Positions 7,113-36,262 of a stretch of DNA of 64,000 nucleotides are shown here, one piece after another. Numbering within the stretch: the first letter of the stretch is position 1; every line of letters begins with the position of its first letter. The translations under genes and the position numbers were made by a program. The notes under the pieces are model-generated. The model was not told the DNA's origin, did not search any database, and was given only the letters and a program-made list of their open reading frames with translations. The DNA comes from Nitrospirales bacterium (GTDB taxonomy: Bacteria; Nitrospirota; Nitrospiria; Nitrospirales; UBA8639): positions 248,001 to 312,000 of the forward strand of contig JAJEJG010000013.1 of assembly GCA_022828225.1 (NCBI GenBank). Direction: 5' to 3'.

Positions 7113-7388
7113 ATGATAAAGGGTTTTAAATGTAAGAAAACAGAGCGCTTGTTCAAGGGTGAACGGGTTCCTGCTTTCTCCGGTTTTTCCAGGCAAGCCG
7201 ATAAGCGGCTAAGGATACTGGATGCCTCTGAAACACTGAAAGCCTTACAAGCCCTGCCGAGTAATCACTTTGAGGCGTTATCCGGTGATAGAGCGGGACA
7301 ATACAGCATACGCGTGAATCGACAATGGCGCATATGTTTTACGTGGGACGAAGGTGCCCATAATGTGGAAATCACAGATTACCACTAG
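7113..7388 (+). CDS. higB: HigB-type (RelE superfamily) mRNA-interferase toxin
   Basis: This 91-residue protein has the features of plasmid-maintenance killer toxins: early FKCKKTERLF, a central LSGDRAGQYSIRVNRQWRICF core and the C-terminal VEITDYH. HigB toxins cleave mRNA on the ribosome. Toxin precedes antitoxin, the usual order for HigBA, and the antitoxin ATG follows 31 bp after its stop. The pair lies immediately upstream of the large NorD-like gene, which starts only 11 bp after higA, so all three may share a transcript. Confidence 0.88.
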   Translation: MIKGFKCKKTERLFKGERVPAFSGFSRQADKRLRILDASETLKALQALPSNHFEALSGDRAGQYSIRVNRQWRICFTWDEGAHNVEITDYH

Positions 7389-7419
7389 ATGACTGAAGTG
7401 CAGGACGGAGGTGACGATC

Positions 7420-7722
7420 ATGGCTAGAGAGCCAATCCATCCGGGCGAGTTTCTGGCAGATGAGTTGCAGGAAATTGAAGTGACGGCGACTGAGTTATCA
7501 CGCCAGATTGGCGTACCGCCTAATCGTATATCGCAGATCGTTCGTTGCAAGCGTGATATCACAGCCGACACCGCTTTGCGCCTTGGTCAGTTTTTCGGGA
7601 CGGGGCCGGAGCTGTGGTTAAACCTTCAAAAGGCTTACGATCTGGACAAGGCCAAAGCGGCACTCGGAACAACAATTCGCAGAATACATCGCTGGCAACC
7701 TGAAGGACAGACCGCGGGATAA
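7420..7722 (+). CDS. higA: HigA-type antitoxin, XRE-family regulator
   Basis: The 100-residue product begins MAREPIHPGEFLADEL, the hallmark opening of HigA antitoxins. It continues with an XRE helix-turn-helix (TELSRQIGVPPNRISQIV) that would bind the operator upstream of higB and neutralise the toxin. The ATG at 7420 is chosen over a GTG at 7411 because a strong ribosome-binding site GGAGG lies 6-8 bases before it. The C-terminal tail (RRIHRWQPEGQTAG) is longer than in many HigA proteins. Confidence 0.9.
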   Translation: MAREPIHPGEFLADELQEIEVTATELSRQIGVPPNRISQIVRCKRDITADTALRLGQFFGTGPELWLNLQKAYDLDKAKAALGTTIRRIHRWQPEGQTAG

Positions 7723-12402: not shown

Positions 12403-12486
12403 TCCGCTACTGCAATTTTTCAGCCAGCACCTTTTCCGTTTGTTTTCAGGGGTAGGCTACAACCCTAAAAGTATTAGGGGGCACTT

Positions 12487-14418
12487 ATGAGATTGAAAAG
12501 AGTCCAGATACGTGGATTTCGATCGATAGAAGCAATGGAACTTGCTTTCGACGGAAGCGGACACAAAATTCTGGTTGGTATAAACGAAAGCGGCAAATCA
12601 AACATATTAAACGCTTTGCATCTGCTGTCTGGCGAAACATTTGATGAAAAAGACAGGAAGATATTGTACGACGGAAATGCATTTGTCAGATTTCACTTTG
12701 CGTTGGACAACAACGAAATTGAAGAGTGTAGAACGAAATTCGTTGAAAAGTTTCTTCCAGGCGAAGACGCAAAATTGACAGAAGATCTTACGGTTAAGTC
12801 ATTCTTTGAAGAACGTTCAAAATATATTTTGTATAAGGTTGAATGTGGTGAGAAAGGTTACTGGACATATTGGAAACTAGATGAAAACCTGCACATTGAA
12901 GGCACTTGGCATTTGGTTAGCCAAGACATTGTCAACTCTGGCTTGCAGGATAAAATCTCTCCCGAATCATATGTTAACGACGAATATATTAAAAGGCAGT
13001 TCAATGAACCGGACCAACTAGCGATAAGAAATTATCTATCGCCGACAACATTGGAAGAAATCTACAGATTTCTACGTGGAATAGTAAGTGGAATAGCCAC
13101 GCCGGGTGATTACACCTTTCCAATTCATCATTGGCGATATAATGCAGAAAAGCATGATTTGCCTCGCAGCATCGGCAGAGACACATTTGCCAACAATCCC
13201 GATTGCAGCATTCCATTAAAGAATATGTTTCTATTAGCTGATATTCCAGAAAAGGAAATTCGCCGCAAGATTACGGAAGCATACAACCTAGAGCCCAATC
13301 GGTTTAAGAGTCTATTAGACGATGTCAACGAAAAGACAAATGAGTACATTAAGGAAAGCTGGAAAGAGTATCAGAAAGAATATGAAAATGTAGAAATAGA
13401 ATTAAGGAAGGATGGAGAAGATATTGCAATCGGGATTCAGGACACAAAGAGTACTTTTAGCTTTGAGGAACGCAGCGACGGGTTTCGCAGGTTTGTTTCC
13501 TTCTTGTTGAAGATAAGCACTGAATGTGACAAAGGGGAGTTTGCAGACATCCCTTTGATTTTGATTGATGAACCCGAAACGGGACTGCATCCAAGCAGTG
13601 CAAAAAATTTGAAATACAAACTGATAGAACTAGGCAAAAAAACCACAATAGTCTATGCCACTCACTCCATCTCAATGATTGATACGGATAACATACCGAA
13701 CAATTTAATTGTCTCAAAAGATAAAGAAAACACCACCTATAAAGAAGCCAAAGAGGATGGCACATCGCCTGCCGAGATCATATATCAGGCAATCGGACAT
13801 TCAATATACGAAGACCTAAAAAAGAACAACATCCTGCTGGAAGGATATACGGACAAACGAGTTTTTCGTTTGTTCATGGAAGGTGGGGTTTGGGAAGACT
13901 TCGGCATATGCTACTTGGGAAAGGGGAAGAATCTTGAGACGATCACCCCCCTCCTTGATCTAGCAAGCCGAAATTATTTTGTGCTTTCCGATGCAGATGA
14001 ACACGGAAAACGCGGGAAGAGAGAGAGGGGAAATCCTCCTTATTGGTACACATACGAAGATTTGGGCAGTGAGGCTATTACTGTGGAGGATTTCTATCAG
14101 AAACCTTTCTTCAAGAATATAGCTCAAGAAATTCTTGGTCAATATGGGTTTCAAGTTGAGTCATCAGTTCTGTCAGAAGCCAATAACAGAATAGAATGCA
14201 TCAGAAGCTGGCTTAACGAACAACCCACAGAAGTCCTTGAGGAAAGGGCAAAAGCAAACGACCTGGCAAACGCTGCTCACATGGTTAAAAAAATCATTGG
14301 GGATATAAAAATTGAGTGCGCAGAAGGAGTTACAAAAGAAAACGTGATTAAGGGGAAAATACAAAGTGTGCTAGATGCCCTATCGAAAGAAATAAAAAAT
14401 AGTCAAAACCCTACGTGA
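12487..14418 (+). CDS. OLD-family ATP-dependent endonuclease (AAA ATPase plus TOPRIM)
   Basis: The 643-residue protein combines an ABC/SMC-like ATPase and a TOPRIM nuclease. Walker A is GINESGKS at residues 31-38 and Walker B is LIDEPETGLHP at about 359-369. The TOPRIM Glu is in LLEGYTDK (E452) and the acidic pair is DAD at 502-504. OLD nucleases act in phage defence and DNA processing. The GajB-like UvrD helicase that would define a Gabija pair is absent, so this is a stand-alone OLD protein. The gene is far more A+T-rich than mdh and purE on either side (AAA, GAA and ATA codons are frequent), a sign of horizontal transfer. Confidence 0.85.
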   Translation: MRLKRVQIRGFRSIEAMELAFDGSGHKILVGINESGKSNILNALHLLSGETFDEKDRKILYDGNAFVRFHFALDNNEIEECRTKFVEKFLPGEDAKLTEDLTVKSFFEERSKYILYKVECGEKGYWTYWKLDENLHIEGTWHLVSQDIVNSGLQDKISPESYVNDEYIKRQFNEPDQLAIRNYLSPTTLEEIYRFLRGIVSGIATPGDYTFPIHHWRYNAEKHDLPRSIGRDTFANNPDCSIPLKNMFLLADIPEKEIRRKITEAYNLEPNRFKSLLDDVNEKTNEYIKESWKEYQKEYENVEIELRKDGEDIAIGIQDTKSTFSFEERSDGFRRFVSFLLKISTECDKGEFADIPLILIDEPETGLHPSSAKNLKYKLIELGKKTTIVYATHSISMIDTDNIPNNLIVSKDKENTTYKEAKEDGTSPAEIIYQAIGHSIYEDLKKNNILLEGYTDKRVFRLFMEGGVWEDFGICYLGKGKNLETITPLLDLASRNYFVLSDADEHGKRGKRERGNPPYWYTYEDLGSEAITVEDFYQKPFFKNIAQEILGQYGFQVESSVLSEANNRIECIRSWLNEQPTEVLEERAKANDLANAAHMVKKIIGDIKIECAEGVTKENVIKGKIQSVLDALSKEIKNSQNPT

Positions 14419-14752
14419 GGGATGGCTTGGGAAATCTTACCTTGGGAGTGATTTGAGTCTTGCTCACATGGACGGCCTCATAATAGGCCGTCTATAGCAA
14501 GTTCCCACCCGATCTCTGCTCCTCTTTCGACCGCCTCCGGCCTTCAGACCCACCCACTTTTCCTCTTGAGTCCCTTGGACCCCCGTAAACGTGGTCCCGT
14601 GTGGTCTGGTTTCGATCAGGACGTGGGAACAGGAGAACGCTGCTGCCTAAGGAGAGGAAGGTACAGGGAACAAGCTGGGGGCGCTAACGGTGTAAGGTCT
14701 GTTACAAAAAGCCGAGAAAAGAAAAATCAAGAAATTGCAAAATGCTCTGTTG
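14419..14752. other. Gene-free 334-bp stretch downstream of the OLD gene
   Basis: The only clear structure is a perfect hairpin GACGGCCT-(6 nt)-AGGCCGTC at 14471-14492, 53 bp after the OLD stop. It lacks a T-run, so it is not a standard intrinsic terminator. No ORF here has convincing protein character. This may be the right-hand scar of the OLD gene insertion. Confidence 0.5.
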
Positions 14753-23931: not shown

Positions 23932-24007
23932 TGGTGGAGCTGGCCGGGATTGAACCGGCGACCTCGTGAATGCCATTCACGCGCGCTCCCAACTGCGCCA
24001 CAGCCCC
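23932..24007 (-). tRNA. tRNA-Ala (anticodon GGC)
   Basis: A complete 76-nt cloverleaf with encoded CCA. The acceptor begins GGGGCTG and ends CAGCTCCACCA; the anticodon stem CGTGA/TCACG encloses the loop ATGGCAT, giving anticodon GGC; the T arm carries GGTTCAATCC. Confidence 0.95.
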
Positions 24008-24160
24008 ACTCAGAAGTGCTTTCGCAGAAACGTGCAAGAACGACCGAATCTAACACGCAGGTCAGGATCGGTCAAGGTTGCGGGTATACCCCAGGCCCCG
24101 ATCGGGGGCGGCGTCTTTGGTTTTTCTTATATCTCTGCCTGTCATCTCCGTCCTCCCTTC

Positions 24161-24199
24161 TGTCATGCCCGACATCGTTAATCGGGCATCCAGTGTCAG
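24161..24199. repeat. Family B hairpin
   Basis: TGTCATGCCCGAC-ATCGTTA-ATCGGGCATCCAGTGTC folds on its GCCCGA/TCGGGC arms. The arm is changed on both sides compared with other copies (GCCCGAC with ATCGGGC instead of TCCCGAC with ATCGGGA), so pairing has been kept by compensatory change. It is the last repeat of this kind before the 25-36 kb block. Confidence 0.7.
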
Positions 24200-24279
24200 A
24201 GGTGGCTCGGGAAACCTGAACAATGGGTATAAGTGACGTTTCTGCTCGCGAGCGGCATTGCCGTCCATGCGGAGGAATC

Positions 24280-24408
24280 ATGGCGAGACGGCCACGCCGA
24301 AACCATAGCCCGGCGTTTAAGGCCAAGGTGGCGCTGGCGTGGCGGCTCTCGATTACGCTGGAGACGGAGCCGTGCGTGCGAAGCCGTGGCTCGACGGGGC
24401 CCGCCTGA
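24280..24408 (+). mobile_element. Remnant of an IS3-family transposase OrfA
   Basis: Twenty residues from the ATG (MARRPRRNHSPAFKAKVALA) match the characteristic start of IS3-type OrfA proteins, and the element's own GGAGG ribosome-binding site is kept nine bases upstream. After that the sequence loses the helix-turn-helix and reaches a stop. No OrfB with a DDE domain and no terminal repeats are visible, so this is a short relic. Confidence 0.65.
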
Positions 24409-24487
24409 ATGGGCCGTTAGCTGGCCTTCGCTAACCGGTGCAGACCGCATTCAGCCCTTGGCGGGCAAACGCCTGACCAGGTTTTCT

Positions 24488-24667
24488 TCAACCAGCCCCA
24501 GCCCATCCAGGCGGCGGCATAACCAGGGCGGAGAGCCACTTATCGACAGCCTGCCAACTGTTCAAAATAGTCCAGCCGCCTCTGAGCACGTTCAGGCCTG
24601 ACTCGGCAAACGCGGTCAACGTGTTAACGATCCAAGAAACAACAAGGTCAAACGTGGCATCCTTCAT
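24488..24667 (-). CDS. Possible 59-residue protein of unknown function
   Basis: The frame starts with ATG behind a GAGAGG purine run and encodes an amphipathic, Trp-containing product (MKDATFDLVVSWIVNTLTAF then ILNSWQAVDKWLSAL). It has no recognised relatives and lies in decayed DNA. It could be a real small protein, or a chance frame. Confidence 0.3.
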   Translation of the reverse strand: MKDATFDLVVSWIVNTLTAFAESGLNVLRGGWTILNSWQAVDKWLSALVMPPPGWAGAG

Positions 24668-24784
24668 GACGAGCCTCTCTGGTTGGTTGGATATTGTCAA
24701 TCGTTCCCCATAGGGATTGAAGACCAGGCAACTCAACGATAGCGGGAAGGGGCAAATCGAATCAACAGATTGGCGGTTTGATGA

Positions 24785-24901
24785 TTCCTGACAAACTTCC
24801 CCTTGAGCGGACTCAGAAATCGCCAGCACGGTCGGGTGCTTTAAACGGCGTTGAACCGTCATGCCATAGAAGCGTTCCTTGCTTGGGATTTCGAACGCGC
24901 C
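24785..24901 (-). pseudogene. Possible relic of an NhaR-like LysR regulator C-terminus
   Basis: The translation contains IPSKERFYGMTVQRRLKHPT followed by VLAISESAQGEV, a pattern I associate with the C-terminal end of NhaR-type LysR regulators (KERFYAI..ER..KHPAV). No start, DNA-binding domain or continuous frame precedes it. Neighbouring minus-strand frames up to 25068 also look protein-like but are broken, consistent with frameshift decay. The identification rests on memory of the family and is tentative. Confidence 0.3.
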
Positions 24902-25093
24902 GGCCGGGGAACTTGACGATAAACGCATCCACTAGGCTCTGTGGACATTCGCAGACAAAACTTGTAGCCTCTTCCTTCCAGAACGGTTTTGTGCTCTCCA
25001 AAGCGTCTATTGGAAGCGCATCGTACCATCTCGTCTAGGAGATGGTTGTTCGGGATGCTCCACGCCAACCGCGTTCGATCAAATGCCTCTCTT

Positions 25094-25116
25094 GAGGATT
25101 GTCAACTTGAATCCTC
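25094..25116. promoter_or_regulatory. Inverted repeat upstream of the ECF sigma gene
   Basis: GAGGATT (25094-25100) and AATCCTC (25110-25116) form a perfect 7-bp inverted repeat with a 9-nt spacer, 24 bp before the sigma-factor ATG. An operator or a 5' leader hairpin are both possible. Confidence 0.35.
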
Positions 25117-25140
25117 GTTTGTTTGATCTGTTCTCGTTTG

Positions 25141-25662
25141 ATGAATCTTCACGACCATAGCGACTACGATCTTGTTGACCTCATCGTTCAAGAGGACATG
25201 CAAGCCTTTGAGGTACTTTATGAACGTTATGCCGGCAGGGTTTTAAAACGTTGCTATTTCATTTGCCTATCCTCCGATCAGGCCCGAGATTTGATGCAAG
25301 AAATCTGGATTAAAGTCTTTCTTCATCTTCGCTCCTTCAAAAAAGAAGCAACTTTTCAAACCTGGCTCTATCGCCTGACCACCAACCATTGTCTGAACTA
25401 CCTGAAATCCAGGTCTCGCGCCGATCAGTTGTTTCAAAAAATTGAGATGGAAGAAAAAGTTCCTACAGAGGACACTCATTCCGTAGAGGTGAAAGACATC
25501 CTTGCGACGATCCCATTCGAAGACAGAGAACTCCTCACGATGAAATTTATAGCCGGTTACACCTATGAAGAAGTGGCTTCGATTTGCGGAATGAACGTCA
25601 GCGCCGTAAAAATGAAAGTTTCTCGATTGCTCGGCAGGCTCAGAAAGGCGGTAGAATCATGA
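25141..25662 (+). CDS. ECF-type RNA polymerase sigma factor
   Basis: This 173-residue protein has only regions 2 and 4. Region 2 includes FEVLYERYAGRVLKRCYF and the core-binding DLMQEIWIKVF with TFQTWLYRLTTNHCLNYL. Region 4 is PFEDRELLTMKFIAGYTYEEVASICGMNVSAVKMKVSR, here described in part. The stop overlaps the ATG of a 60-residue protein, the usual place for an anti-sigma factor, though that protein lacks a membrane anchor or zinc motif. The gene opens a block of membrane and stress genes, so it may direct their transcription. ATG 25141 is used; a TTG at 25123 is an alternative, and neither has a good Shine-Dalgarno. Confidence 0.88.
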   Translation: MNLHDHSDYDLVDLIVQEDMQAFEVLYERYAGRVLKRCYFICLSSDQARDLMQEIWIKVFLHLRSFKKEATFQTWLYRLTTNHCLNYLKSRSRADQLFQKIEMEEKVPTEDTHSVEVKDILATIPFEDRELLTMKFIAGYTYEEVASICGMNVSAVKMKVSRLLGRLRKAVES

Positions 25663-25841
25663 TTCACGACGAAGAATTCATCTTCAATAACGTCCTGGAT
25701 GCCCTGGATTTACCAGAGCCTGATCGTTTCATTAAAGAACAGATCATGAAAATGGTGCTCTTTCTCTTGGTCGCCAAAGAAATCGGCGTCTTTCATGTCT
25801 CCATTCCCGGAATGTTGTTGGATGACTTCACGGACGAATAA
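25659..25841 (+). CDS. Small protein coupled to the ECF sigma factor
   Basis: The 60-residue product has an acidic start (MIHDEEFIFNNVLDALDLPE), a helical middle (FIKEQIMKMVLFLLVAKEIG) and the acidic end LLDDFTDE. Its ATG overlaps the sigma stop (ATGA), so translation is coupled, and it ends 11 bp before the first channel gene. The position suggests a regulator of the sigma factor. It has neither a zinc-binding anti-sigma motif nor a clear transmembrane segment, so this is inference. Confidence 0.65.
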   Translation: MIHDEEFIFNNVLDALDLPEPDRFIKEQIMKMVLFLLVAKEIGVFHVSIPGMLLDDFTDE

Positions 25842-25852
25842 AGGAGAATACT

Positions 25853-26698
25853 ATGGTACCGCTGCAAGAGGACATACAAAAGTGGGGGGCGGGGACCGTC
25901 GCCTTTTTCCAAAGTTTATTTGAAACGATGGGGGCCTACTTGCCGAATCTTCTCGGCGGTCTGCTGCTCCTTCTTATAGGTTGGCTCACGGCAAAGACGT
26001 TGAGAGGCGTCACCGTCAAGCTCGTCCGTGTTTCCGGAATTCAGACATTGGGCGAAAAGGTCCAATTTAATGAATTGTTGAAAAAGGTGGGGATCAGCAA
26101 AACCCTGGATGAGATTCTCGGAGGGCTCGTCTATTACTTGGTCTTGTTGATTTTTCTGGTTTCGGCCTCTGAGGTCTTGGGTGTCAAGGTTGTCCTGGAA
26201 ACGTTAAATGCCTTCATTGCCTACCTGCCGCATATTCTTGGGGCGTTTCTCATCCTCGTCATATCGCTGTACGTCGCCAAAATCGCCAAAGATGCCGTCA
26301 GAACGGCTTTGTCGAGCTTCAACGTCGCCTACACCAGAGCGCTGAGTTCGCTGCTTGAAATCGTCATCATCGGGTTCGGCATTGTCATGGCCCTGACGGA
26401 AATCGGGGTGGATATGACCGTGTTCACGACAAACGTCACCCTCATCATTGGCGGCGCAGTCTTCGCCATTGCGCTTTCGGTTGCACTGGGCAGCCGAACG
26501 ATCATTGCCAACACATTAGCACGATATTACGTCTGCCAGATTTATCACGTCGGGGATGAGGTCTATTTGGCCGGACACAAAGGAACCATCGTCAAGATGA
26601 CGCCCGTCTCCGTGGTCCTTAAAACGGACAATGATGATAATTTGCACGTTCCGAACGAACAGATAATCAAAGAAGGTTCTAATGCTCCAAAATCCTAA
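25853..26698 (+). CDS. Mechanosensitive-channel-type membrane protein (MscS-related)
   Basis: The 281-residue protein has about five hydrophobic helices (LPNLLGGLLLLLIGWLTAKT; ILGGLVYYLVLLIFLVSASE; YLPHILGAFLILVISLYVAK; ALSSLLEIVIIGFGIVMALT; LIIGGAVFAIALSVALGSRT). A C-terminal MscS-like beta domain follows (YHVGDEVYLAGHKGTIVKMT then VVLKTDNDDNLHVPN). The repeated short TM helix with a Gly-Trp end is typical of conserved-TM-helix MscS relatives. A good Shine-Dalgarno (AAGGAG) precedes the ATG. It is probably an inner-membrane channel responding to tension or osmotic shock. Confidence 0.8.
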   Translation: MVPLQEDIQKWGAGTVAFFQSLFETMGAYLPNLLGGLLLLLIGWLTAKTLRGVTVKLVRVSGIQTLGEKVQFNELLKKVGISKTLDEILGGLVYYLVLLIFLVSASEVLGVKVVLETLNAFIAYLPHILGAFLILVISLYVAKIAKDAVRTALSSFNVAYTRALSSLLEIVIIGFGIVMALTEIGVDMTVFTTNVTLIIGGAVFAIALSVALGSRTIIANTLARYYVCQIYHVGDEVYLAGHKGTIVKMTPVSVVLKTDNDDNLHVPNEQIIKEGSNAPKS

Positions 26699-27013
26699 CA
26701 TCTCCAAAACCCATCCTCGTGTTCTTTTCACTTCTCATGCCACTCCGTGAACGAGGCAAAATGGTGTGCCTGGCAGCAATTTATGAGAGTATAGTCGCTT
26801 CGCCGCAACGTTTTTGTGACGAAAACACCTTCTTCGGTGTCTAATAAGAAGTAGTGTTTCGTCTGATTTGTCCCGCCCCTTTTTCTACATTTTTTCAACC
26901 CTCCCCGTGACCAAAACCTCCCGTTCCTTGTCTAATTAATCGAGGGGAAAAGGCATTCGGGAGCATTCCGCAACACGCCTGCCAGCCTCCACACCACGAA
27001 AAGGGAGGAAACC
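26699..27013. other. Intergenic region with a 46-nt hairpin
   Basis: The 315-bp gap holds a long stem at 26818-26863: GACGAAAACAC and CTTCTT on the left pair with AAGAAG and GTGTTTCGTC on the right with small bulges. There is no T-run directly after it, so it is better described as a strong leader or attenuator hairpin than a plain terminator. Purine-rich GGGAGG precedes the next gene. No ORF of note. Confidence 0.55.
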
Positions 27014-28522
27014 ATGCAGATGCAGCTACAGCCACTCATTGATCAACTGACCCAGGTCATGGGATCTCAAATACCTAATATTGTTGGGGCCACGGCATTA
27101 TTGGTTCTCGGTTGGATCGTTGCCCAAGTGATCGCCAGCACGACCCGAACGCTCATACGTCAAAGTACCCTGGACCGCCGGGTCGCAGAAGCGCTTTATC
27201 CCGGTGATGCCACAAAGGCTGTTCAAATCCAAAAGTGGATTGGGCGGGGCGTGTTTTATCTCTTGATGGTTCTCGTCTTGATCGCCGTCCTCGAAACCCT
27301 CCAACTCAGTCAGGTGAACGAACCGCTGAATCGTCTGCTCACGGAAATCTTCGAATTTCTCCCCCGTTTAGCCAGCGGGCTGGTTTTGTTAGGCGTTGCT
27401 TGGGTGATTGCCACCGTCCTGAGGGCTGGCATCAGAAACGGTTTGAACGCGGCTCAATTCGACAAACGGTTTCAGGATCAAACCGAACTGGAGACGGACG
27501 AAAGCCGGCCACTGTCGCATGTCATTGGAGAAACCGTCTATTGGCTGATTTTGCTGCTGTTTCTTCCGGCGATACTCGGCGCGTTAGCCGTACAAGGGTT
27601 GCTCGAGCCGGTCAAGGACATGACGGATACTTTCCTTGGGTTTATTCCCAATCTATTCGCCGCGGGAGTCATTTTCCTGATCGGATATTTTGTCGCTCGA
27701 ATCGTCCAACGCATTGCCGAGAACATCCTCGCCGCCGCGGGCGTCGATCGTCTCAGCGAACGGGTGGGTCTAGCCAACTTGTTAGGCGCACAACCCATTT
27801 CGAAAATTCTGGGATTAATCGTCTATGTGTTGATTTTTATCCCCGTGTTAATCGGCGCACTCAATGCGCTTCAACTGGAAGCGATTACACGACCAGCGAG
27901 CAATATGCTCGATATCATGCTCGGCATCCTTCCGTACCTGTTTGGAGCCACGCTGATCGTGACGGTCGCCTTTGTCGTGGGCCGGGTCGTGGCCGGGCTT
28001 GTCTCCAGTGTGTTGGCGAGCTTGGGGTTCAACAACATTTTGGTACGAATAGGGATATCCGAACAGCCGGCAACGGGAGACAAGACACCATCGGAAGCCG
28101 TCGGCTCGCTGATCATTGCGGCTATCCTCTTATTTGCCAGTATCGAGGCGGCCGAATTGTTGGGGCTCGAACTGCTCGCCGGTTTGGTCGCTGATTTAAC
28201 CGTCTTTGGCGGTCACTTGTTGGTGGGATTAGTGGTTTTCGCCATCGGCTTATACCTGGCAAATCTGGCAGGCAAAGCCATTCAATCCAGCAGCATCACG
28301 CAAGCCTCTCTCGTAGCCAAAAGTGCACGAGCCGGAGTCATCATTCTCGCGGGTGCCATGGCCTTACGACAAATGGGATTGGCTGATGAAATTATCAACT
28401 TGGCTTTCGGCCTGACCTTGGGAGCGTTGGCCATCGCTTTTGCCTTGGCCTTCGGACTAGGTGGGCGGGAGATTGCCGGAGAGGAACTCAAGGAATGGAT
28501 ACGACAACTTAAGAACAAATAA
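27014..28522 (+). CDS. Multi-helix mechanosensitive-type protein with repeated conserved TM units
   Basis: The 502-residue protein consists of about five repeats of a hydrophobic unit starting LPxLxxxxxLLxxGWxxA (IPNIVGATALLVLGWIVAQV; LPRLASGLVLLGVAWVIATV; IPNLFAAGVIFLIGYFVARI; LPYLFGATLIVTVAFVVGRV; FGGHLLVGLVVFAIGLYLAN). Each is separated by amphipathic segments. It ends with LGGREIAGEELKEWI and lacks a clear MscS beta domain. Such CmpX-like proteins are linked to envelope and osmotic stress. Shine-Dalgarno GGGAGG is seven bases before ATG. It probably works with the smaller channel-like protein upstream. Confidence 0.78.
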   Translation: MQMQLQPLIDQLTQVMGSQIPNIVGATALLVLGWIVAQVIASTTRTLIRQSTLDRRVAEALYPGDATKAVQIQKWIGRGVFYLLMVLVLIAVLETLQLSQVNEPLNRLLTEIFEFLPRLASGLVLLGVAWVIATVLRAGIRNGLNAAQFDKRFQDQTELETDESRPLSHVIGETVYWLILLLFLPAILGALAVQGLLEPVKDMTDTFLGFIPNLFAAGVIFLIGYFVARIVQRIAENILAAAGVDRLSERVGLANLLGAQPISKILGLIVYVLIFIPVLIGALNALQLEAITRPASNMLDIMLGILPYLFGATLIVTVAFVVGRVVAGLVSSVLASLGFNNILVRIGISEQPATGDKTPSEAVGSLIIAAILLFASIEAAELLGLELLAGLVADLTVFGGHLLVGLVVFAIGLYLANLAGKAIQSSSITQASLVAKSARAGVIILAGAMALRQMGLADEIINLAFGLTLGALAIAFALAFGLGGREIAGEELKEWIRQLKNK

Positions 28523-28564
28523 TGATTATGACCCTGCAAACCATTCATCAAAGGAGGGCAAGTC

Positions 28565-29518
28565 ATGACTGACGAAAAGTCCGTTATTGTCAAAACAAAA
28601 GAAAGTGTCGTTGAGACCATCAAAGGTGCCGGTGATATCACGAATGCGCTTCTTGAGTTGGTCAGCGGAACGCTGGTCACGGCGCTGAGAGGGACAAAAG
28701 CCGTAGGAACTGAAGCAGGCAGCCTCGTCAAAGACACCATCATTGGATCGGTTCAAGGCGTCTCCCAAGTGGGGGCAGAGGTTGGTTCCGCAGCGAAAGG
28801 CATCATCGTCGGTGCCGTCAAAGGAACCAAGGAAGTCACGACCGACACCCTTGACACCATTGGTACAAGCACCTCCGCGTTAATCAAGACGACCTCGGAC
28901 GTTGGCGGAGACCTGGCTCAAACGGCAAAAGGCGCCGTTGAAGGAGCCATCGTCGCGGCCAAGGACGTGGGTACGGGAATCGCCGACGCCGCGGCTCACG
29001 CGACAACCGCTGCCCTGAGAGGGGTCAAGGAAGTTGGCGGCGAACTGGCCGTCACCGCAAAAGAGACCGTGGTCGGCGCCGCACAGGCGGCACAAGAAGT
29101 CGGTGAGAAGGCGCTGGACACGATTGGTCGTACGGCAGAAGCCGTGATCAAAACGACCGGTGAAGTGGGCGGTGACGTCGCGTCAACCGCCAAAGCCGCT
29201 GTCGTTGGCGCACTCCAAGGAACCAAAGAGGTTGGCGAGAAAGCCCTGGATACGGTGAGTGGGACAACCAACTCGATCATCAAGGCGACTGCTCAGATTG
29301 GAGGCGACCTCGCCAATACGGCGAAACATGCCGTCGAGGGAGCCATTGACGGTGCAAAAGCGATCGGGGTGGATACCGCGGAAGCGGCCTCTGCGGCAGC
29401 CACGAGTGCCATCAAGGCTGCAGGCGCAATCAGCGAAAGCGCTGGAACTCAGGTTCGCAACGCCGTCACGGGAACGATTGGAGGGGTCAAGGTTGTTTTG
29501 AAAGAGCCGTTCAAATAA
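28565..29518 (+). CDS. Ala/Gly/Lys-rich helical repeat protein (LEA/apolipoprotein-like, 44-residue units)
   Basis: The 317-residue protein is almost entirely built from a 44-residue unit repeated at least four times in register, each beginning TAK and ending VGG(D/E)(L/V)A. The unit has a pattern close to AK-xxVxGAxxxxxEVGEKALDTI-xxxxxxxIK, and 44 equals four 11-residue turns. Eleven-residue repeats form long amphipathic helices in LEA proteins, apolipoproteins and synucleins. There is no signal peptide, Cys or Trp. A membrane-surface stabiliser expressed with the neighbouring channels is the best guess. The Shine-Dalgarno AAAGGAGG precedes ATG. I know no named family for it. Confidence 0.75.
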   Translation: MTDEKSVIVKTKESVVETIKGAGDITNALLELVSGTLVTALRGTKAVGTEAGSLVKDTIIGSVQGVSQVGAEVGSAAKGIIVGAVKGTKEVTTDTLDTIGTSTSALIKTTSDVGGDLAQTAKGAVEGAIVAAKDVGTGIADAAAHATTAALRGVKEVGGELAVTAKETVVGAAQAAQEVGEKALDTIGRTAEAVIKTTGEVGGDVASTAKAAVVGALQGTKEVGEKALDTVSGTTNSIIKATAQIGGDLANTAKHAVEGAIDGAKAIGVDTAEAASAAATSAIKAAGAISESAGTQVRNAVTGTIGGVKVVLKEPFK

Positions 29519-29652
29519 AATAATATGAACCGTCTCCGTGCTGGCGTCCTTTATTGAAATCCAGAGAACAATTCTGTCCTCTTGTGTCCTCAACCAAGAG
29601 GACGGAATTGTTGGATTCCTCAGAACTTTGGCTTAAGCATCTCAACCCCAAC

Positions 29653-30207
29653 ATGCTCGAGGGAAATCCTCACAGCCGGTTTTTCAAATTCTTCATTAAG
29701 ATTTTTCTCCTTCAGGGCCTCTGTCTCATTAATACGGTATTTTGCCTCTCCGCTGTGGCATCGAATGAAAAACAAGTGATCGGGTGGGTGGAGAAGGTTC
29801 AACTGCTCCCCGGGGCAATTACCGTCCATGCCAAAATTGATACCGGAGCGGACAACTCTTCTCTGAACGTGAACGAGATAACGGAATACATCCGTCAGGG
29901 CGAATCGTGGGTGCGATTTTCGTTTGCTCCGAAATTTGGAGAGGCCGTCACAATGAAAAGAAAAGTGTATCGATATGCCAGAGTCAAACAGAAAGCTGCG
30001 GAATCACAGGAACGCCCAGTCATCCTATTGGGGGTGTGTCTCGGAGGCCTGTATCAACCTGACATGGAAATCAATCTCACAGACCGCACAAACTTCAAAT
30101 ACAACATGCTCATTGGTCGAAGTGTGCTCGCCGGACGTTTCATCATTGACCCTTCTTTAACCTACGCAACGACCCTTTCCTGTCCCCAGACTTCAACTCA
30201 TGAGTAA
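29653..30207 (+). CDS. Exported retropepsin-like protease (ATP-dependent zinc protease family label)
   Basis: The 184-residue product has a signal-like segment (FFKFFIKIFLLQGLCLINTV) and then the retroviral-protease-type active site AKIDTGADNSSLN, with the conserved Asp-Thr-Gly. A second conserved region is YNMLIGRSVLAGRFIIDP. Databases often call this family an ATP-dependent zinc protease, but the motif is that of an aspartic protease. It is the first of a known three-gene set with the 7TM and ATP-grasp genes downstream. The ATG at 29653 is preferred; TTG at 29554 would give a long non-hydrophobic lead. The stop overlaps the next start by eight bases. Confidence 0.75.
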   Translation: MLEGNPHSRFFKFFIKIFLLQGLCLINTVFCLSAVASNEKQVIGWVEKVQLLPGAITVHAKIDTGADNSSLNVNEITEYIRQGESWVRFSFAPKFGEAVTMKRKVYRYARVKQKAAESQERPVILLGVCLGGLYQPDMEINLTDRTNFKYNMLIGRSVLAGRFIIDPSLTYATTLSCPQTSTHE

Positions 30208-31729
30208 ACGACATCTCTACGTTCTTGTCACGATGTTATGTGCCTTGAGTCTGGGCGCCTTTGCGTATAAGACCCTCATTCTCAAGTTTCCTCTTATCGC
30301 TGAGACTCAAGCCAGTCTCTGGGATATTGAAGTCCACATCAGTTTTCACGCCAAAAACAAACCCGTGAAAGTTTCTCTGTTTTTGCCAAAGAACACCCGA
30401 CGCTATGCGATCGTGGATGAAAACTTTATCTCACACGGCTTTGGACTCTCGACTCTGAAGGACAATCAGAATCGGCAGGCCATCTGGTCCAAACGACGAG
30501 CAAAGGGCAAACAGAGCCTCTATTATCGCGGAACCGTTCACCGCATCGAAGTGACGGAACCTCCAGCCGATAAATCAGCGCCTCAATCCGAGACCTCGAC
30601 GTTGACCGGCGCAAAACTGGAAGCCGCCAAAGCCGTATTAAACGAAATCGTAGATCGGTCCGCAGATACAAGCTCCCTTGTCTCCGAACTCACCGGTCGT
30701 TTGAGACGACCCGATAGGGATCAGAATCTGCTTTTGCTCCTTGGGAAAAAATCAACGGCGGAAAAGACGTTACACGTTGCCGCTGAAATTTTGGCTCTTG
30801 CCAGGATTCCCGCTCGGATCGTCCATGGGGTTCGCCTCCAAAGCCATTCGGGCCAACCACAATTCGTCCATTGGCTTCAGGTTTTTGATGGGGGGCTTTG
30901 GAAATCTTACGATCCTGAAACCGGCAACCCAAAGCTTCCGGATGATTATTTCACGTGGTGGCGAGGGGCCGAACCCGTAACGGAACTGACTGGAGGAAGC
31001 GGACTCGACATGACGGTCTCCATTGCCCCGAATCAGGAGGAGGCCATTGAAGCCGCCATGCTGCAAAGCCAATTTGCGGCACCAAAATTTTTAGAGTTTT
31101 CCTTGTTTGCGCTTCCTCTGGATAAACAAGCGGTGTATCGCGTGCTTCTCATGGTTCCCCTTGGGGCGTTCCTCTTGCTCATCTTACGAAACGTGATTGG
31201 CATCAAAACCTTTGGGACCTTCATGCCCATCTTGATTGCCTTGGCGTTTCGCGAGACCCAATTGTTGTGGGGCATTATTCTATTTTCTTTAGTCGTGGCC
31301 TTGGGACTCAGCATGCGTTTTTATTTGGAACACCTCAAGCTTCTTCTCGTGCCTCGACTGGCAGCGATTTTGATCATTGTTGTGCTCTTAATGGCTATTC
31401 TGAGCATCATCAGTCACAAGCTCGGCCTCGAGCGTGGGCTGTCAGTTGCTCTGTTTCCCATGGTGATTCTCACCATGACCATTGAACGCATGTGCATCGT
31501 GTGGGAAGAACGAGGCGCCCAAGAATCGATCCAGCAGGGCCTGGGAAGTTTGACCGTGGCCGTGCTCACCTACGTGGCCATGACGCTGCCCCACGTCGAA
31601 CATCTGCTTTTCGTGTTTCCGGAACTTCTGCTCCTCTTACTTGCGGGCACGCTCCTCCTTGGCCGCTACTCCGGATTCAGACTCCTGGAATTGAGACGAT
31701 TTAAAGCATTGGCCCAAGATTCCGGATAA
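30200..31729 (+). CDS. Inactive-transglutaminase-like protein fused to seven TM helices
   Basis: The 509-residue protein has an N-terminal membrane anchor (LVTMLCALSLGAFAYKTLIL) and a periplasmic transglutaminase-like domain of about 250 residues. A C-terminal set of about seven helices follows (VLLMVPLGAFLLLILRNVIG; GTFMPILIALAFRE; LSLVVALGLSMRF-type stretches). It matches the UUP1/7TM_transglut families known to occur with an ATP-grasp ligase and a retropepsin-like protein. Their joint role is thought to be peptide or glutamate modification at the envelope, but is not settled. Confidence 0.85.
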   Translation: MSKRHLYVLVTMLCALSLGAFAYKTLILKFPLIAETQASLWDIEVHISFHAKNKPVKVSLFLPKNTRRYAIVDENFISHGFGLSTLKDNQNRQAIWSKRRAKGKQSLYYRGTVHRIEVTEPPADKSAPQSETSTLTGAKLEAAKAVLNEIVDRSADTSSLVSELTGRLRRPDRDQNLLLLLGKKSTAEKTLHVAAEILALARIPARIVHGVRLQSHSGQPQFVHWLQVFDGGLWKSYDPETGNPKLPDDYFTWWRGAEPVTELTGGSGLDMTVSIAPNQEEAIEAAMLQSQFAAPKFLEFSLFALPLDKQAVYRVLLMVPLGAFLLLILRNVIGIKTFGTFMPILIALAFRETQLLWGIILFSLVVALGLSMRFYLEHLKLLLVPRLAAILIIVVLLMAILSIISHKLGLERGLSVALFPMVILTMTIERMCIVWEERGAQESIQQGLGSLTVAVLTYVAMTLPHVEHLLFVFPELLLLLLAGTLLLGRYSGFRLLELRRFKALAQDSG

Positions 31730-31736
31730 CCTCACC

Positions 31737-32687
31737 ATGTTTGCGTTAGCCAATACACTCAAGGAACGCGGAGTCCTCGGCCTGAATCAACGTAACGCCG
31801 AGTATACGCTCTGGCATAACCCGCGCCACCTGTATCCGCTGGTTGATGATAAACTCACAACCAAGCGATTGGCCGAGCACGCCGGGCTTGCCGTTCCCCA
31901 ATTGTACGGCACGATTGAAATCCAACGGCAGGTGCGCACCCTTCCTGAACTCCTACAGCCTTATGAGGATTTCGTGATCAAGCCTGCACAGGGAAGCGGA
32001 GGGGATGGCATCGTGGTCATTACGGGAAGACGGAAAGCCCGATACCGCAAAGTAAGCGGTCAGTTGATCAGCCAAGAGGCACTCGACCATCACGTGGCCA
32101 ACATACTCAGCGGACTCTACAGTTTGGGCGGCCATCCGGACAAAGCCCTCATTGAATACCGTGTGAAATTCGATCCTATCTTTGAATCCATTAGCTTTCA
32201 GGGCGTCCCTGATGTCCGCATCATCGTGTTTCTCGGCGTACCGGTTATGGCCATGGTGCGTTTACCCACAAAGATGTCCGATGGCAAAGCCAATCTGCAT
32301 CAAGGGGCCATTGGGGTGGGAATCGACCTTGCGACGGGGAAAACGCTCAGTGGCGTGTGGAACAACGAAATTGTTATCGAGCATCCGGACACGGAACATC
32401 CGGTCCAGGGAGTCCAGATTCCTTGGTGGGACCTGTTACTGAACATCGCGGCGCGCAGTTATGAACTGACGGGATTAGGCTATCAAGGGGTGGATATGGT
32501 CCTGGATCGAGACCAAGGTCCACTCATTTTGGAACTCAACGCACGACCCGGCCTTAATATCCAAATTGCCAATCAGGCGGGTCTATACCCTCGCTTAAAG
32601 CTGGTCGAACAGTGCCATTCTGAATTGTCCGGCTTAGAAGCGCGGCTGGCTTTTGCCAAAGAACGTTTTCACTGCCCCCCAACGTAA
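31737..32687 (+). CDS. Alpha-L-glutamate ligase-like ATP-grasp protein
   Basis: The 316-residue protein resembles RimK-type ATP-grasp ligases that join amino acids to a protein or peptide at ATP cost. The ATP-binding loop is FVIKPAQGSGGDGIVVI, and metal ligands sit in LILELNARPGLNIQIAN. The opening NQRNAEYTLWHNPRHLYPLVDDK is characteristic of the subfamily that pairs with the 7TM transglutaminase-like protein. The gene starts seven bp after that gene. Its substrate is unknown; an anionic osmotic or surface modification is one possibility. Confidence 0.88.
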   Translation: MFALANTLKERGVLGLNQRNAEYTLWHNPRHLYPLVDDKLTTKRLAEHAGLAVPQLYGTIEIQRQVRTLPELLQPYEDFVIKPAQGSGGDGIVVITGRRKARYRKVSGQLISQEALDHHVANILSGLYSLGGHPDKALIEYRVKFDPIFESISFQGVPDVRIIVFLGVPVMAMVRLPTKMSDGKANLHQGAIGVGIDLATGKTLSGVWNNEIVIEHPDTEHPVQGVQIPWWDLLLNIAARSYELTGLGYQGVDMVLDRDQGPLILELNARPGLNIQIANQAGLYPRLKLVEQCHSELSGLEARLAFAKERFHCPPT

Positions 32688-32807
32688 GTTGTTTTCAGAA
32701 CCTCGTTTCTCCCTGTTTCTCATTTGAGCGATCTCGATTGCCCTCTCCAAAACGAATGCCGAATCAGCCCATCCTTGAGTGAGAAACCCGGTTGGAATCC
32801 CATTTTT

Positions 32808-34103
32808 CTATCCTAACCAACTCGAGAAGAGCGTCGCCAATCCAAGAAAGCTGAAAAACCCAAAGACGTCGGTCACGGTCGTCAAAATAATTGACGATGA
32901 TTGAGCGGGATCTTGGTTGAGGGACCGAAGAATCATGGGAATGACGGCTCCTGAGAACCCGGCAATCGACATGGAAAGAATCATTGAAATCCCAATGACC
33001 ATGGTCAATCCAACGGATCGACTCCAAAGATACACGCCAAGACACGTGGTCGCCGCCACGGCGACACCATTCAGAAACGCAACTGCGACCTCTTTCCGAC
33101 TGACGGTAAACCATTGGGAGAGTCGGATATCTCGTAAGGCTAATCCTCGCATGACCACGGCCAGGGACTGAGCACCCGTATTGCCGGATTGTCCCGCAAC
33201 CACCGGCAACAACACCGCCAACGCGGTGAATTGAGCTATCGTGCTTTCAAATAACCCCACAACAAATGCAGCTAGAAACGCCGTCAGTAAATTGATCTGA
33301 AGCCACGGCAAGCGTTTCCTGACCGCAAAGAAGGGTGGAGACAACACCCGTTCATCCGCACTCACACCGACCATGGTTTGCATGTCGGCGCTGGCTTCCT
33401 CCTGACTCGCCTGGATAATCGCCCGGTTTCGAATGATACCCAGCAACCGGCCATCCAGATCCGTGACGGGAATGGTAAAGAGTTTTCTCTCATTGAAGAA
33501 GTCTACGATTTGCTCACGGTCTTCCATCGGATGAATGGTCAACACGTTGCGTTCCATGATGGCCTGAAGCCGCTCGTCCGGAGACGCAATCAGCAAATCG
33601 CGAAGCGGCACTCTGCCGACCAACCGTTGATCCCGTTCGATGACGTACACTTCATGCATATCCCGTGATCCCCCGGCACGAATCTGGCCGATAGCCTGTT
33701 CCACAAGGAGGTCCTGCGGAAGCGCCAGAACCCGAGGATCCATGAGACTGCCGGCCGAATCCGTCGGATACTCAAAAAACGACGCCAATTCCTTAGCAAC
33801 GGTTGCCGGAATCTTGTCTAAAAGTTCCGCACGCTGTTCCGGAGCCAGTCGAACAAGCAAATTCGCCAAAATCGTAGGGGAAAATTCAGGAGCGGCGCGA
33901 GACAGTCCCTCATCATCCAGTCCGGGCAACATTTCAGCTGCCAGCGTGGGATTCATGTTAGACAGCAGATTGGCAATATTCCGGGGCTGGGTGTGAGCGA
34001 TCACTCCCAGGCTTTCCGTAAACGGCATCGATTCGAGCAGTCGCGCCGCCGCTTCAGGATGCGTGAGGATAAACGTTTCGTACAGGGGGGTGGCCGGTTT
34101 CAT
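32808..34103 (-). CDS. mgtE: Magnesium transporter MgtE
   Basis: The 431-residue protein has the MgtE order: N-terminal superhelical domain (residues 1-120), two CBS domains (120-250, with SLMDPRVLALP and RNVLTIHPMEDR) and five C-terminal helices. Pore motifs include GQSGNTGAQSLAVVMRGL and the conserved acidic residue in ILTTVTDVFGF. MgtE imports Mg2+ and closes when cytosolic Mg2+ fills the CBS/N domains. The ATG directly abuts the stop of the upstream soluble MgtE-like gene, so both are coupled. Confidence 0.92.
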   Translation of the reverse strand: MKPATPLYETFILTHPEAAARLLESMPFTESLGVIAHTQPRNIANLLSNMNPTLAAEMLPGLDDEGLSRAAPEFSPTILANLLVRLAPEQRAELLDKIPATVAKELASFFEYPTDSAGSLMDPRVLALPQDLLVEQAIGQIRAGGSRDMHEVYVIERDQRLVGRVPLRDLLIASPDERLQAIMERNVLTIHPMEDREQIVDFFNERKLFTIPVTDLDGRLLGIIRNRAIIQASQEEASADMQTMVGVSADERVLSPPFFAVRKRLPWLQINLLTAFLAAFVVGLFESTIAQFTALAVLLPVVAGQSGNTGAQSLAVVMRGLALRDIRLSQWFTVSRKEVAVAFLNGVAVAATTCLGVYLWSRSVGLTMVIGISMILSMSIAGFSGAVIPMILRSLNQDPAQSSSIILTTVTDVFGFFSFLGLATLFSSWLG

Positions 34104-34973
34104 TCATGCGCCGGGAGGCTTGCCCCCTTCGCCATGAGTACGAGACGGCGAACCTGGTTGAACTGTTTGAGATAATTCCGTCAACACCCACATGCACACA
34201 AGGGAATAGGCTTGCCACAGGTCGAGCAGCACCGCAGGCAAGAAACTTGGCGGTGTTCGGTGCGCGCGCTCTTCGATCACCTGTTGCAGGATTCGATAGC
34301 GTAAGGCCCCCAGAAAAATCCCGTCGTGGTCAACCACGGGGAGTGTGGGAAATTGAGACCAATGGGGATGGGTCACGAACTCCTCTTTCGTCAGACCGGC
34401 CGAAATGGACACGACTTGCTTATTCATCACTGATGCGATCCCTGCATCCGGATCAGCCATCAACAACTGCTTCAGGGTTACCACCCCCTCAAGTTTCGCG
34501 TCACGGTCTACGACGTACACGTAATACAGCACTTGTCGCACATTGCGTTTCAGCATCTCGATTCCTTGTTCGACGGTCACATCGGGGGGCAAGGTGACCA
34601 CGTAGGGATCCGCCAGACTTCCGGCTGTTTGTTTGGATTCGCGTAAAATCCGGCGAAATCTCGGTCCATAGAGAGGATCCAATGCGTCGACCACCCGCAT
34701 TTGAAACTCGGGAGAAAATTGCCGGAATACGACAAAGGCGGTCGAGGTCCGCAGTTCACTCATCACGCCGGCTGCTTGCTCAAGCGAACCGTGTTGCAAT
34801 ATGGACGCGGCCACGCTTGGCTGACAACAATCCAGCAGATTCGCCGTGTCCGGCGCGGGAAGGGACGCGATCATCCCTGCGGCAACCGATGACTCGAATT
34901 GCTCCAATTGTCGAGCAGCCTCGACCGGATACAGTTGCACGAACCTCAGAGTGAGATAATCTTCCGCGAGCAT
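34104..34973 (-). CDS. Soluble MgtE-N/CBS protein with a C-terminal hydrophobic tail
   Basis: The 289-residue protein is a paralogue of the cytoplasmic half of MgtE. It has the helical N domain (LPAPDTANLLDCCQPSVAA) and a CBS pair (GSLADPYVVTLPPDVTVEQG; MNKQVVSISAGLTKEEF). There is no transport domain; only one weak hydrophobic segment (VLLDLWQAYSLVCMWVLTEL) is seen near the end. It lies immediately before mgtE, which suggests a regulatory partner, such as a mixed dimer that changes the Mg2+ threshold. Alternatively it may be the split half of an older second MgtE. Confidence 0.78.
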   Translation of the reverse strand: MLAEDYLTLRFVQLYPVEAARQLEQFESSVAAGMIASLPAPDTANLLDCCQPSVAASILQHGSLEQAAGVMSELRTSTAFVVFRQFSPEFQMRVVDALDPLYGPRFRRILRESKQTAGSLADPYVVTLPPDVTVEQGIEMLKRNVRQVLYYVYVVDRDAKLEGVVTLKQLLMADPDAGIASVMNKQVVSISAGLTKEEFVTHPHWSQFPTLPVVDHDGIFLGALRYRILQQVIEERAHRTPPSFLPAVLLDLWQAYSLVCMWVLTELSQTVQPGSPSRTHGEGGKPPGA

Positions 34974-34978
34974 ACCGT

Positions 34979-35806
34979 TTATTCAAACGGATCAATGACC
35001 GTGGTGGTTTCTGAAAATTGAGAAGCAGGGATCAGAACCCGCCCCTCTTTGGTTTGTACGATCACCGCCACAGGAGTAATCGATAACACTTCACCAGAAA
35101 CATGCCCCATACGGACCTTTTGCCCAACCTTCAACACGGGATGCAAATAATAGGCAGCAATAAGATTGCCGATCGCGGACTTGGCACCTAAACCGAACGA
35201 AAGGGCTACCCCGGCAATAAATCCGGCGACTAACAGCACGATCAAATTACTCAGGATGGTGGTATCGATCCCCAATTCATTGATCACCGTGACGACGATT
35301 AACAACGCCATTCCAATATAGAAAGTTTGCGCAACGAGTGGCCCCTGCGTCACGCCCGCCGAGGTGCACGCCACACTGATCACTTCCTTGAGAAAATTGG
35401 CCGCAAACAACCCCAAGACCAGAATGAGAACCGCCAACCCCACCTTAGGGAGAAAATAGGCAAACCCTGATAAAGCCTCCGAGATCATGGCGAGACCAAG
35501 CATTTCGGTCGCCGAAACGAGAAAAAGGAGAAAGACGACCCAAAACCCGAGGATTCCCAAAATTTGCGAAGCGGTTTTTTGTGAACCCGTTCGTTCAAGA
35601 ACCGTTTGAATGGCTGTCTTACTCAGGAACTGGTCCACGTCGATGCGATGGAACAGCTTGGTCAGCCCTATGGAGACCATCCGCCCCACGACAAAACCCG
35701 TCAGCACCAACAACGCGGCCCCAAACAGTTTTGGTAAAAACTCAATGAGGAGTTGCGCGCTCTTGGTCAAAGAGTCTTCAATCGCAACGATCCAATCGAT
35801 CATCAT
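34979..35806 (-). CDS. Third mechanosensitive-type channel protein (MscS-related)
   Basis: The 275-residue protein parallels the one at 25853-26698. Repeated helices begin with LPKLFGAALLVLTGFVVGRM and FLPKVGLAVLILVLGLFAAN, then a final helix AGFIAGVALSFGLGAKSAIG leads into a MscS-like beta domain (KVGQKVRMGHVSGEVLSITP; VIVQTKEGRVLIPASQF). It heads a three-gene operon with the CBS protein five bp downstream and mgtE after it, which ties channel activity to Mg2+ transport. Confidence 0.8.
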   Translation of the reverse strand: MMIDWIVAIEDSLTKSAQLLIEFLPKLFGAALLVLTGFVVGRMVSIGLTKLFHRIDVDQFLSKTAIQTVLERTGSQKTASQILGILGFWVVFLLFLVSATEMLGLAMISEALSGFAYFLPKVGLAVLILVLGLFAANFLKEVISVACTSAGVTQGPLVAQTFYIGMALLIVVTVINELGIDTTILSNLIVLLVAGFIAGVALSFGLGAKSAIGNLIAAYYLHPVLKVGQKVRMGHVSGEVLSITPVAVIVQTKEGRVLIPASQFSETTTVIDPFE

Positions 35807-36000
35807 CGTGTCTCTGAATAATCGCGGATTTTAGTGAAGTATCGTTTTTTCATCGGAAGGGGCCCGTACAGGCGGAAGCAGTGTATCATGTTTCCACTTG
35901 TGATCCCAGTATACCCCGTCAATTGAGGATTGACCTTCCCTCCATAAAACGGTCCGCTTAGAGGGTGCGTTTTCTGGAACAATTGAAGGGTCCGTGACAA

Positions 36001-36159
36001 TCATCCGCGCAATGGAATCACCTCGGCGCTTTGGGCACCAGTAACGTCGTCGGACCACTTTTGCATCACCGATTGCCGGCGCTTGAACAGATCGGAGCGT
36101 TGATAGGCCCCCTCAACTCCTTTGACGACGTGGGCGAGACAGGCTTCGGTATGAACGAC
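36001..36159 (-). pseudogene. C-terminal relic of a P4-type tyrosine integrase
   Basis: The frame reads TEACLAHVVKGVEGAYQRSD then LFKRRQSVMQKWSDDV before a TGA. This is the recognisable end of P4-like phage/island integrases (EACLAH...V..AY.RSDLF.KRR..M..W). The catalytic Tyr region and everything before it are lost. It lies 17 bp from the 3' end of tRNA-Leu, the classical target of such integrases. Confidence 0.75.
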
Positions 36160-36175
36160 GTAGAAAAAGGGAGGA

Positions 36176-36262
36176 TGGTGCCGAAGGCGGGATTTGAACC
36201 CGCACACCCCAAGGGGCGCTAGACCCTGAATCTAGTGCGTCTGCCAGTTTCGCCACTTCGGC
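36176..36262 (-). tRNA. tRNA-Leu (anticodon CAG)
   Basis: An 87-nt class II tRNA with CCA encoded (acceptor GCCGAAG pairing with CTTCGGC, then ACCA). The anticodon stem CTAGA/TCTAG encloses TTCAGGG, giving anticodon CAG. A long variable arm (CGCCCCTTGGGGTG) confirms tRNA-Leu. The 3' end faces the integrase relic. Confidence 0.95.

Follow-up and report, generated by a model that had tools for sequence, protein, structure and literature searches.

The only extracytoplasmic function (ECF) sigma factor studied under the control of a mechanosensing complex is SigX of Pseudomonas aeruginosa, for which CfrX is the putative anti-sigma factor (PMC8999054, 2022 review). In the same bacterium, the loss of the three RloA peptidases blocks hypo-osmotic growth, which is rescued by the deletion of rloB or rloC; SigX and AlgU are unmentioned in the main text of that work (PMC12239564). 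Here we describe a 12-kb block of genes, at about 24.09–36.0 kb of a 64,000-nucleotide stretch from a Nitrospirales bacterium (contig C1:248001-312000 of the 2.36-Mb host genome G000; hereafter, the window), in which counterparts of both systems stand together between tRNA-Ala and tRNA-Leu. With a probability of roughly 0.7, we read this block as an acquired, compact cluster for osmotic and membrane-tension stress, fixed at a rearranged and integrase-scarred site and equipped with its own SigX-type control circuit.

A preliminary description of the same DNA had proposed an acquired island with a joint role in osmotic or Mg2+ stress, and its gene list and coordinates proved correct throughout in open reading frame (ORF), Pfam, NCBIfam and ARAGORN checks (Table 1). 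The osmotic part of the proposed role is strengthened, because the retropepsin, seven-helix transglutaminase-like and ATP-grasp trio is rloABC, whose P. aeruginosa counterparts are required to survive hypo-osmotic conditions (PMC12239564), and because the ECF factor with its channel resembles SigX–CmpX. This support is by analogy, and the Mg2+ part of the role stays putative.

The ECF sigma factor has SigX (NF007222) as its best-scoring NCBIfam model, with 92 bits, under the cut-off of 194; it is SigX-like. The system as a whole agrees with only part of what defines the SigX group and is filed as a SigX variant. Its gene overlaps that of the coupled 60-residue partner at 25659, and the CmpX-type channel gene mscA follows. 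The three genes are adjacent in all 14 loci of the family, the window included. A survey of 295 Pseudomonadales genomes found an ECF sigma gene next to each of the 20 closest channel relatives, which is the sigX–cmpX arrangement; in these loci, the small protein encoded ahead of the channel resembles CfrX wherever it could be read. The island is thus like the SigX–CfrX–CmpX system (ECF102) of P. aeruginosa in that an ECF factor is accompanied by a small soluble protein and by a channel of the CmpX type (PF05552/MscS), with a Mg2+ transporter gene nearby (the CorA-like CmaX in Pseudomonas, MgtE in the island) and, at the level of sequence, a matching promoter motif upstream of the channel unit in Pseudomonadales. 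It differs in its gene order, which is sigma–small protein–channel rather than small protein–channel–sigma, in the lack of an OprF-type porin among its proteins in the Pfam search, in a predicted regulon that is the local cluster, rloABC included, and in a small protein that is unrelated in sequence to CfrX. A conserved autoregulatory promoter was not seen in the aligned ECF upstream regions.

The 60-residue protein, predicted with moderate confidence to form three helices, matches no Pfam or NCBIfam model. Homology to CfrX was rejected at the sensitivity of hhalign, which gave a probability below 1%; in the same comparison, two gammaproteobacterial CfrX sets align with each other at 92%. A profile of the protein found no match in 28 rlo-bearing genomes, mostly gammaproteobacterial, in a search run without a positive control.

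A candidate promoter code emerged de novo from a word count over the regions upstream of the cluster genes, in which one bipartite pattern rose above shuffles and was resolved into GTGAC-N18-GTCTAA. The exact motif occurs 23 times in 14 clusters (279 kb), against a Markov mean of 0.0 and no occurrence of the reversed pattern, and its spacing is fixed, other gaps of 12–24 giving 0 or 1 matches in the same 279 kb. The whole host genome holds exactly two matches. They lie at 26816 and 26907 and precede mscB, the repeat-protein gene and rloABC; a matching doublet, 93 bp apart, is present in G024, a genome outside the genus that holds a full cluster. Among the ORFs downstream of the motif in the clusters are those for MscB, the repeat protein, Asp23, CNNM, MscC and the ECF factor. 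Patterns with the canonical ECF −35 element GGAAC showed no clear enrichment in the cluster upstream regions.

The motif also occurs upstream of cfrX–cmpX in Pseudomonadales. In 20 loci (L291-L310), six carry it exactly, ten with at most one mismatch and 18 with at most two, the corresponding Markov means being 0.0, 0.12 and 0.96; these loci are related and therefore do not count as independent events. Its position upstream of cfrX is mostly consistent, and an independent word count in these loci ranks GTGAC-N17-CGTC first (18 sequences). The transcripts of cfrX and cmpX drop in a sigX mutant (PMC3832394), and the SigX promoter consensus has been called not precisely defined (PMC7641640, 2020). 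The motif upstream of cfrX–cmpX may be this consensus. In most of the Pseudomonas loci covered here, however, the motif lies nearer to cfrX than the start site mapped at −208 in P. aeruginosa (PMC7641640), a discrepancy with this reading. No earlier report of GTGAC-N18-GTCTAA was found in the literature searched, most subscription papers lying outside the search, and we present it as a new, predicted promoter motif.

The remaining genes fit the description given of them beforehand. The three mechanosensitive-type proteins are of the PF05552 channel type, and the helical protein of 11-residue repeats is confirmed by its hydrophobic periodicity, which peaks over the whole length at 98.0 degrees, close to the 98.18 degrees of an 11/3 helix, with a height of 339 against a shuffle maximum of 168. 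This protein is ungapped at 317 residues in six genomes, with 67–77% identity, and the period and fixed length would suit a surface helix lying on membranes. Its KTKEGV-like repeats recall synuclein, a resemblance only, with no match to the Pfam synuclein model; a match to a poxvirus membrane protein in Pfam, below cut-off, was taken as a low-complexity artefact. The transporter belongs to the MgtE family (PF01769) and its soluble partner is an MgtE_N-CBS protein, and the trio of mscC, MgtE partner and MgtE recurs in seven genomes of the family.

The Rlo genes match the P. aeruginosa operon (PA1768-PA1767-PA1766) in number, order and domains. The DTGA of RloA aligns over the DTG motif of the solved structures 9g58 and 9g59, a motif that the P. 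aeruginosa peptidase has as well; the N-terminus, hydrophobic and possibly signal-like as judged by eye, may be another likeness. The TIGR02291 model (RloC) was passed at its curated cut-off, whereas RloA (101 against 210 bits) and RloB (501 against 900 bits) lie under theirs. Unlike the P. aeruginosa operon, the island rlo genes lie downstream of mscB and the repeat-protein gene, with predicted SigX-type promoters upstream. By the locus tags given in the papers, rlo (PA1766-1768) lies five genes from cmaX–cfrX–cmpX–sigX (PA1773-1776) in P. aeruginosa; a general rule that rlo stands beside sigX was rejected, as no rlo operon was found within 10 kb in 16 sampled Pseudomonadales, the same search giving one weak ATP-grasp match, in locus L322.

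Table 1. Features of the island and its flanks (positions in the window)
Feature	Position	Strand	Basis or remark
tRNA-Ala (GGC)	23932..24007	-	left flank; ARAGORN
Non-coding decayed DNA, possible IS3 orfA start near 24280	24086..25122		blastn, Pfam
SigX-like ECF sigma factor	25123..25662	+	Pfam Sigma70_r2/r4_2; possible ATG start at 25147
60-residue partner, candidate regulator of the sigma factor	25659..25841	+	ATGA overlap with ECF gene
CmpX-type mechanosensitive channel, mscA	25853..26698	+	PF05552 and MscS beta-domain; MscS structures matched
Predicted ECF promoter P1, GTGAC-N18-GTCTAA	26816..26844	+	motif search
Predicted ECF promoter P2, GTGAC-N18-GTCTAA	26907..26935	+	motif search; 91 bp after P1
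mscB, 502-residue channel protein, four PF05552 stretches	27014..28522	+	Pfam, NCBIfam
317-residue protein of 11-residue amphipathic repeats	28565..29518	+	periodicity analysis
rloA, retropepsin-like aspartic peptidase, DTGA motif	29647..30207	+	PF05618, NCBIfam RloA models; PDB 9g58, 9g59
rloB, inactive transglutaminase fused to seven transmembrane helices	30200..31729	+	PF14400, PF14402, NCBIfam RloB
rloC, ATP-grasp	31737..32687	+	TIGR02291
MgtE magnesium transporter	32808..34103	-	PF01769, TIGR00400 above cut-off
Soluble MgtE_N-CBS protein, MgtE partner in family clusters	34104..34973	-	Pfam, family co-location
mscC, channel-type protein heading the mscC–mgtE–partner unit	34979..35806	-	PF05552
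Integrase C-terminal relic	35998..36149	-	88% identical to intact integrase locus of G012
tRNA-Leu (CAG)	36176..36262	-	right flank; ARAGORN

The island gene set is co-located in three other genera of the family (g4, g7 and g9), with varying order and orientation. Near the ECF loci of these genomes one finds mscB, the mscC/MgtE-partner/MgtE trio, the 317-residue repeat protein and rlo genes, and the larger clusters also hold a second rlo-like set, a CNNM-type protein, Asp23 proteins and classical MscS channels, the cluster of the window being a compact version. This conserved co-location provides independent evidence for a shared envelope or osmotic role.

At this place, the block is absent from the other sampled members of the host genus. 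In blastn comparisons with 13 other genomes of the genus, DNA homology ends at about 24085 and restarts at about 36150, and all that relatives share between these edges at that place is the integrase end, in G012 and G013 only. The ECF sigma gene, RloB and any PF05552 channel are missing from all 13 genomes; the same gene order at the same place in close relatives, which would have spoken against the island as first described, is found in none. The GC content at third codon positions (GC3) is 0.50–0.64 in the island genes and about 0.68–0.75 in the nearest conserved flanking genes, clearly below the flanks rather than equal to them, and comparable clusters from the other genera have a GC content of 0.45–0.52. 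In a tree built from ABC-F plus DnaB, some nodes of which are weakly supported, the host stands next to G012, well inside the genus, so that vertical descent would need about seven losses, or fewer if the weak nodes collapse. Horizontal acquisition is therefore favoured, on the grounds of the absence from 13 relatives, the low GC3 and the number of losses that descent would demand.

The donor cannot be named. The island proteins are often closest to those of G024 (MgtE 77%, MscC about 74%), and the soluble MgtE partner is 64% identical to that of G024, against about 36% for other genera. RloB, by contrast, has its nearer relatives in genus g4, and the closest RloB proteins outside the genus are in Nitrospirales metagenome-assembled genomes such as NPIRA02 and OFTM51. 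Plasmid carriage was rejected, the plasmid matches to RloB and the channel being only distant.

At its right edge, the island adjoins an insertion hot spot. The genomes G012 and G013 hold integrase DNA at this tRNA-Leu, and the integrase adjoining it in G012, an intact tyrosine integrase of 389 residues (L139:2237-3406), is likely the full version of the relic in the window. The relic is real, as first described, and retains the C-terminal end only, about 1.4 kb of the integrase having been deleted. An apparent integrase end also abuts tRNA-Leu in G004 (L143). The left edge stands in part: decayed DNA does lie beside tRNA-Ala, without homology to genus relatives except for a resident repeat at 24151-24197, but the IS3 remnant near 24.28 kb is so short that Pfam could not confirm it. 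The absence of the resident repeat families, previously noted from 24.2 to 36.28 kb, extends to 38.4 kb; it is weak evidence, because repeats are missing from other 4-kb bins of the window, too. One repeat family of about 200–270 bp (L144:3480-3760 and copies) is present in dozens of copies in the host and in its relatives.

The two flanks come from different ancestral loci. In G003 and G009, which represent the ancestral arrangement, a locus X follows tRNA-Ala and a locus Y precedes tRNA-Leu, and in the host, contig C22 brings Y and X together, about 570 bp apart, so that the island marks a rearrangement breakpoint. A small ORF resembling an orphan antitoxin lies at the Y–X junction (G000:C22 ~204400-205000, L188), and both rearrangement products therefore carry DNA unseen in the ancestral arrangement. 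Gene order within the genus is heavily scrambled. The island resembles tRNA islands with P4-type tyrosine integrases in its low GC, its absence from relatives and the integrase relic at the 3′ end of tRNA-Leu, intact in a relative; unlike these, it has no flanking direct repeat and its other flank derives from a different ancestral locus, from which it follows that rearrangement followed or accompanied insertion. The direct repeat of the tRNA-Leu 3′ end that the preliminary description suggested looking for near 24–25 kb was found neither there nor elsewhere in the window, and none was recognised at the C22 junction; nothing longer than 12 bp is common to both island edges in the window. In view of the missing repeat and the rearranged junction, we consider entry at tRNA-Leu via the integrase no more than plausible.

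The gene content and motif suggest how the block could work. The CmpX-type channel would sense membrane tension, and the co-translated 60-residue protein would relay it by holding or releasing the ECF sigma factor. Once free, this factor would fire the tandem GTGAC-N18-GTCTAA promoters, which would raise MscB, that is, more channel, and the putatively membrane-coating 11-residue-repeat protein. Read-through from mscB to rloC would in turn raise RloABC and support survival at low osmolarity; the gaps between mscB and the repeat-protein gene (43 bp) and between the latter and rloA (129 bp) held no terminator-like site. MgtE, its soluble partner and MscC would make up another unit, transcribed in the opposite direction and serving ion balance.

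Several points weigh against this reading. Part of the count of 23 matches comes from the loci used for motif discovery, and in 14 whole genomes the exact motif occurs 21 times and the reversed control 18 times, which is not clearly above; 12 of the 21 matches are no more than 13 kb away from this ECF gene, and the enrichment is therefore local. Within the window, no motif lies upstream of the ECF gene or of mscC–mgtE. The regions upstream of 74 rloA genes, mostly gammaproteobacterial, show no enrichment of the motif, so that ECF control of rlo would be particular to the island gene order and not general; in the island itself it depends on read-through from mscB, and rloA may have a promoter of its own. 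The model as a whole is a prediction from sequence, and its small protein is not detectably CfrX.

Some of these points bear on other explanations. The motif could instead serve another regulator or be the promoter of a different ECF sigma factor, a reading that gains from the other ECF genes carried by the family genomes and from the fact that the pairing of motif and ECF factor is itself a prediction. We nevertheless judge this reading improbable, since the motif is shaped as an ECF −35/−10 pair with fixed spacing and its exact matches concentrate beside this ECF gene; moreover, the island gene is the only match to this ECF factor in the host genome, where the only two exact sites are found about 1.2 kb downstream of that gene, and the motif also precedes cfrX–cmpX, the transcripts of which are lowered in the sigX mutant (PMC3832394). 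More weight is due to the possibility that the 60-residue protein is a channel subunit, a chaperone or a sigma activator and not an anti-sigma factor. Neither CfrX nor any Pfam or NCBIfam family is detectably similar to it, but its start and the stop codon of the ECF gene overlap, a common layout for regulators needing balanced dosage, and its gene is placed where a partner would be expected; we regard the alternative as a serious though less favoured option.

A chance pile of separately acquired envelope genes without shared control would accord with the differing order and orientation among family genomes and with the half of the island that lacks the motif. It is very unlikely in view of the co-occurrence of the same set in three genera, the adjacency of the ECF factor, 60-residue protein and channel in 14 of 14 loci, and the presence of the motif before several members of the set. 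A block ancestral to the genus and lost in every sampled member except the host would agree with the DnaB of G024 being the closest found outside the genus (83%) and with island proteins being often closest to the same genome, as vertical descent would give. Set against this are some seven independent losses in place of one gain (some nodes being weakly supported), the low GC3 of the island genes and their location, with a rearranged junction on one side and an integrase relic on the other, and we consider ancestry unlikely.

Two other low-GC features were seen in the window. The region 12450-14750 is a second low-GC insert, whose flanks are adjacent in G004 (L156); its gene at 12487-14418 (GC 0.40) encodes a 643-residue AAA_15/OLD-like ATPase resembling phage-defence proteins. 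At 7113-7722, two small low-GC ORFs, the second with HTH_3, resemble a toxin–antitoxin pair.

Returning to the acquired stress cluster with a SigX-type circuit, we give even odds to a wider picture, in which SigX-type tension circuits are older and more widespread than Pseudomonas, with Nitrospirota and Pseudomonadales both retaining the promoter code TGTGAC-N17-CGTCTAA or TGTCTAA and the small regulator swapped for an unrelated 60-residue protein. The circuit and its osmotic regulon would then move as one island, and the motif would be the missing SigX consensus. The same sigma–channel pairing in a second phylum, together with a sharp motif at one spacing and another kind of small partner, offers a simple form in which the circuit can be tested. 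The finding also sets rlo within a sigma–channel island and suggests that a single step may be enough for a Nitrospirales bacterium with a small genome to acquire an osmotic stress response.

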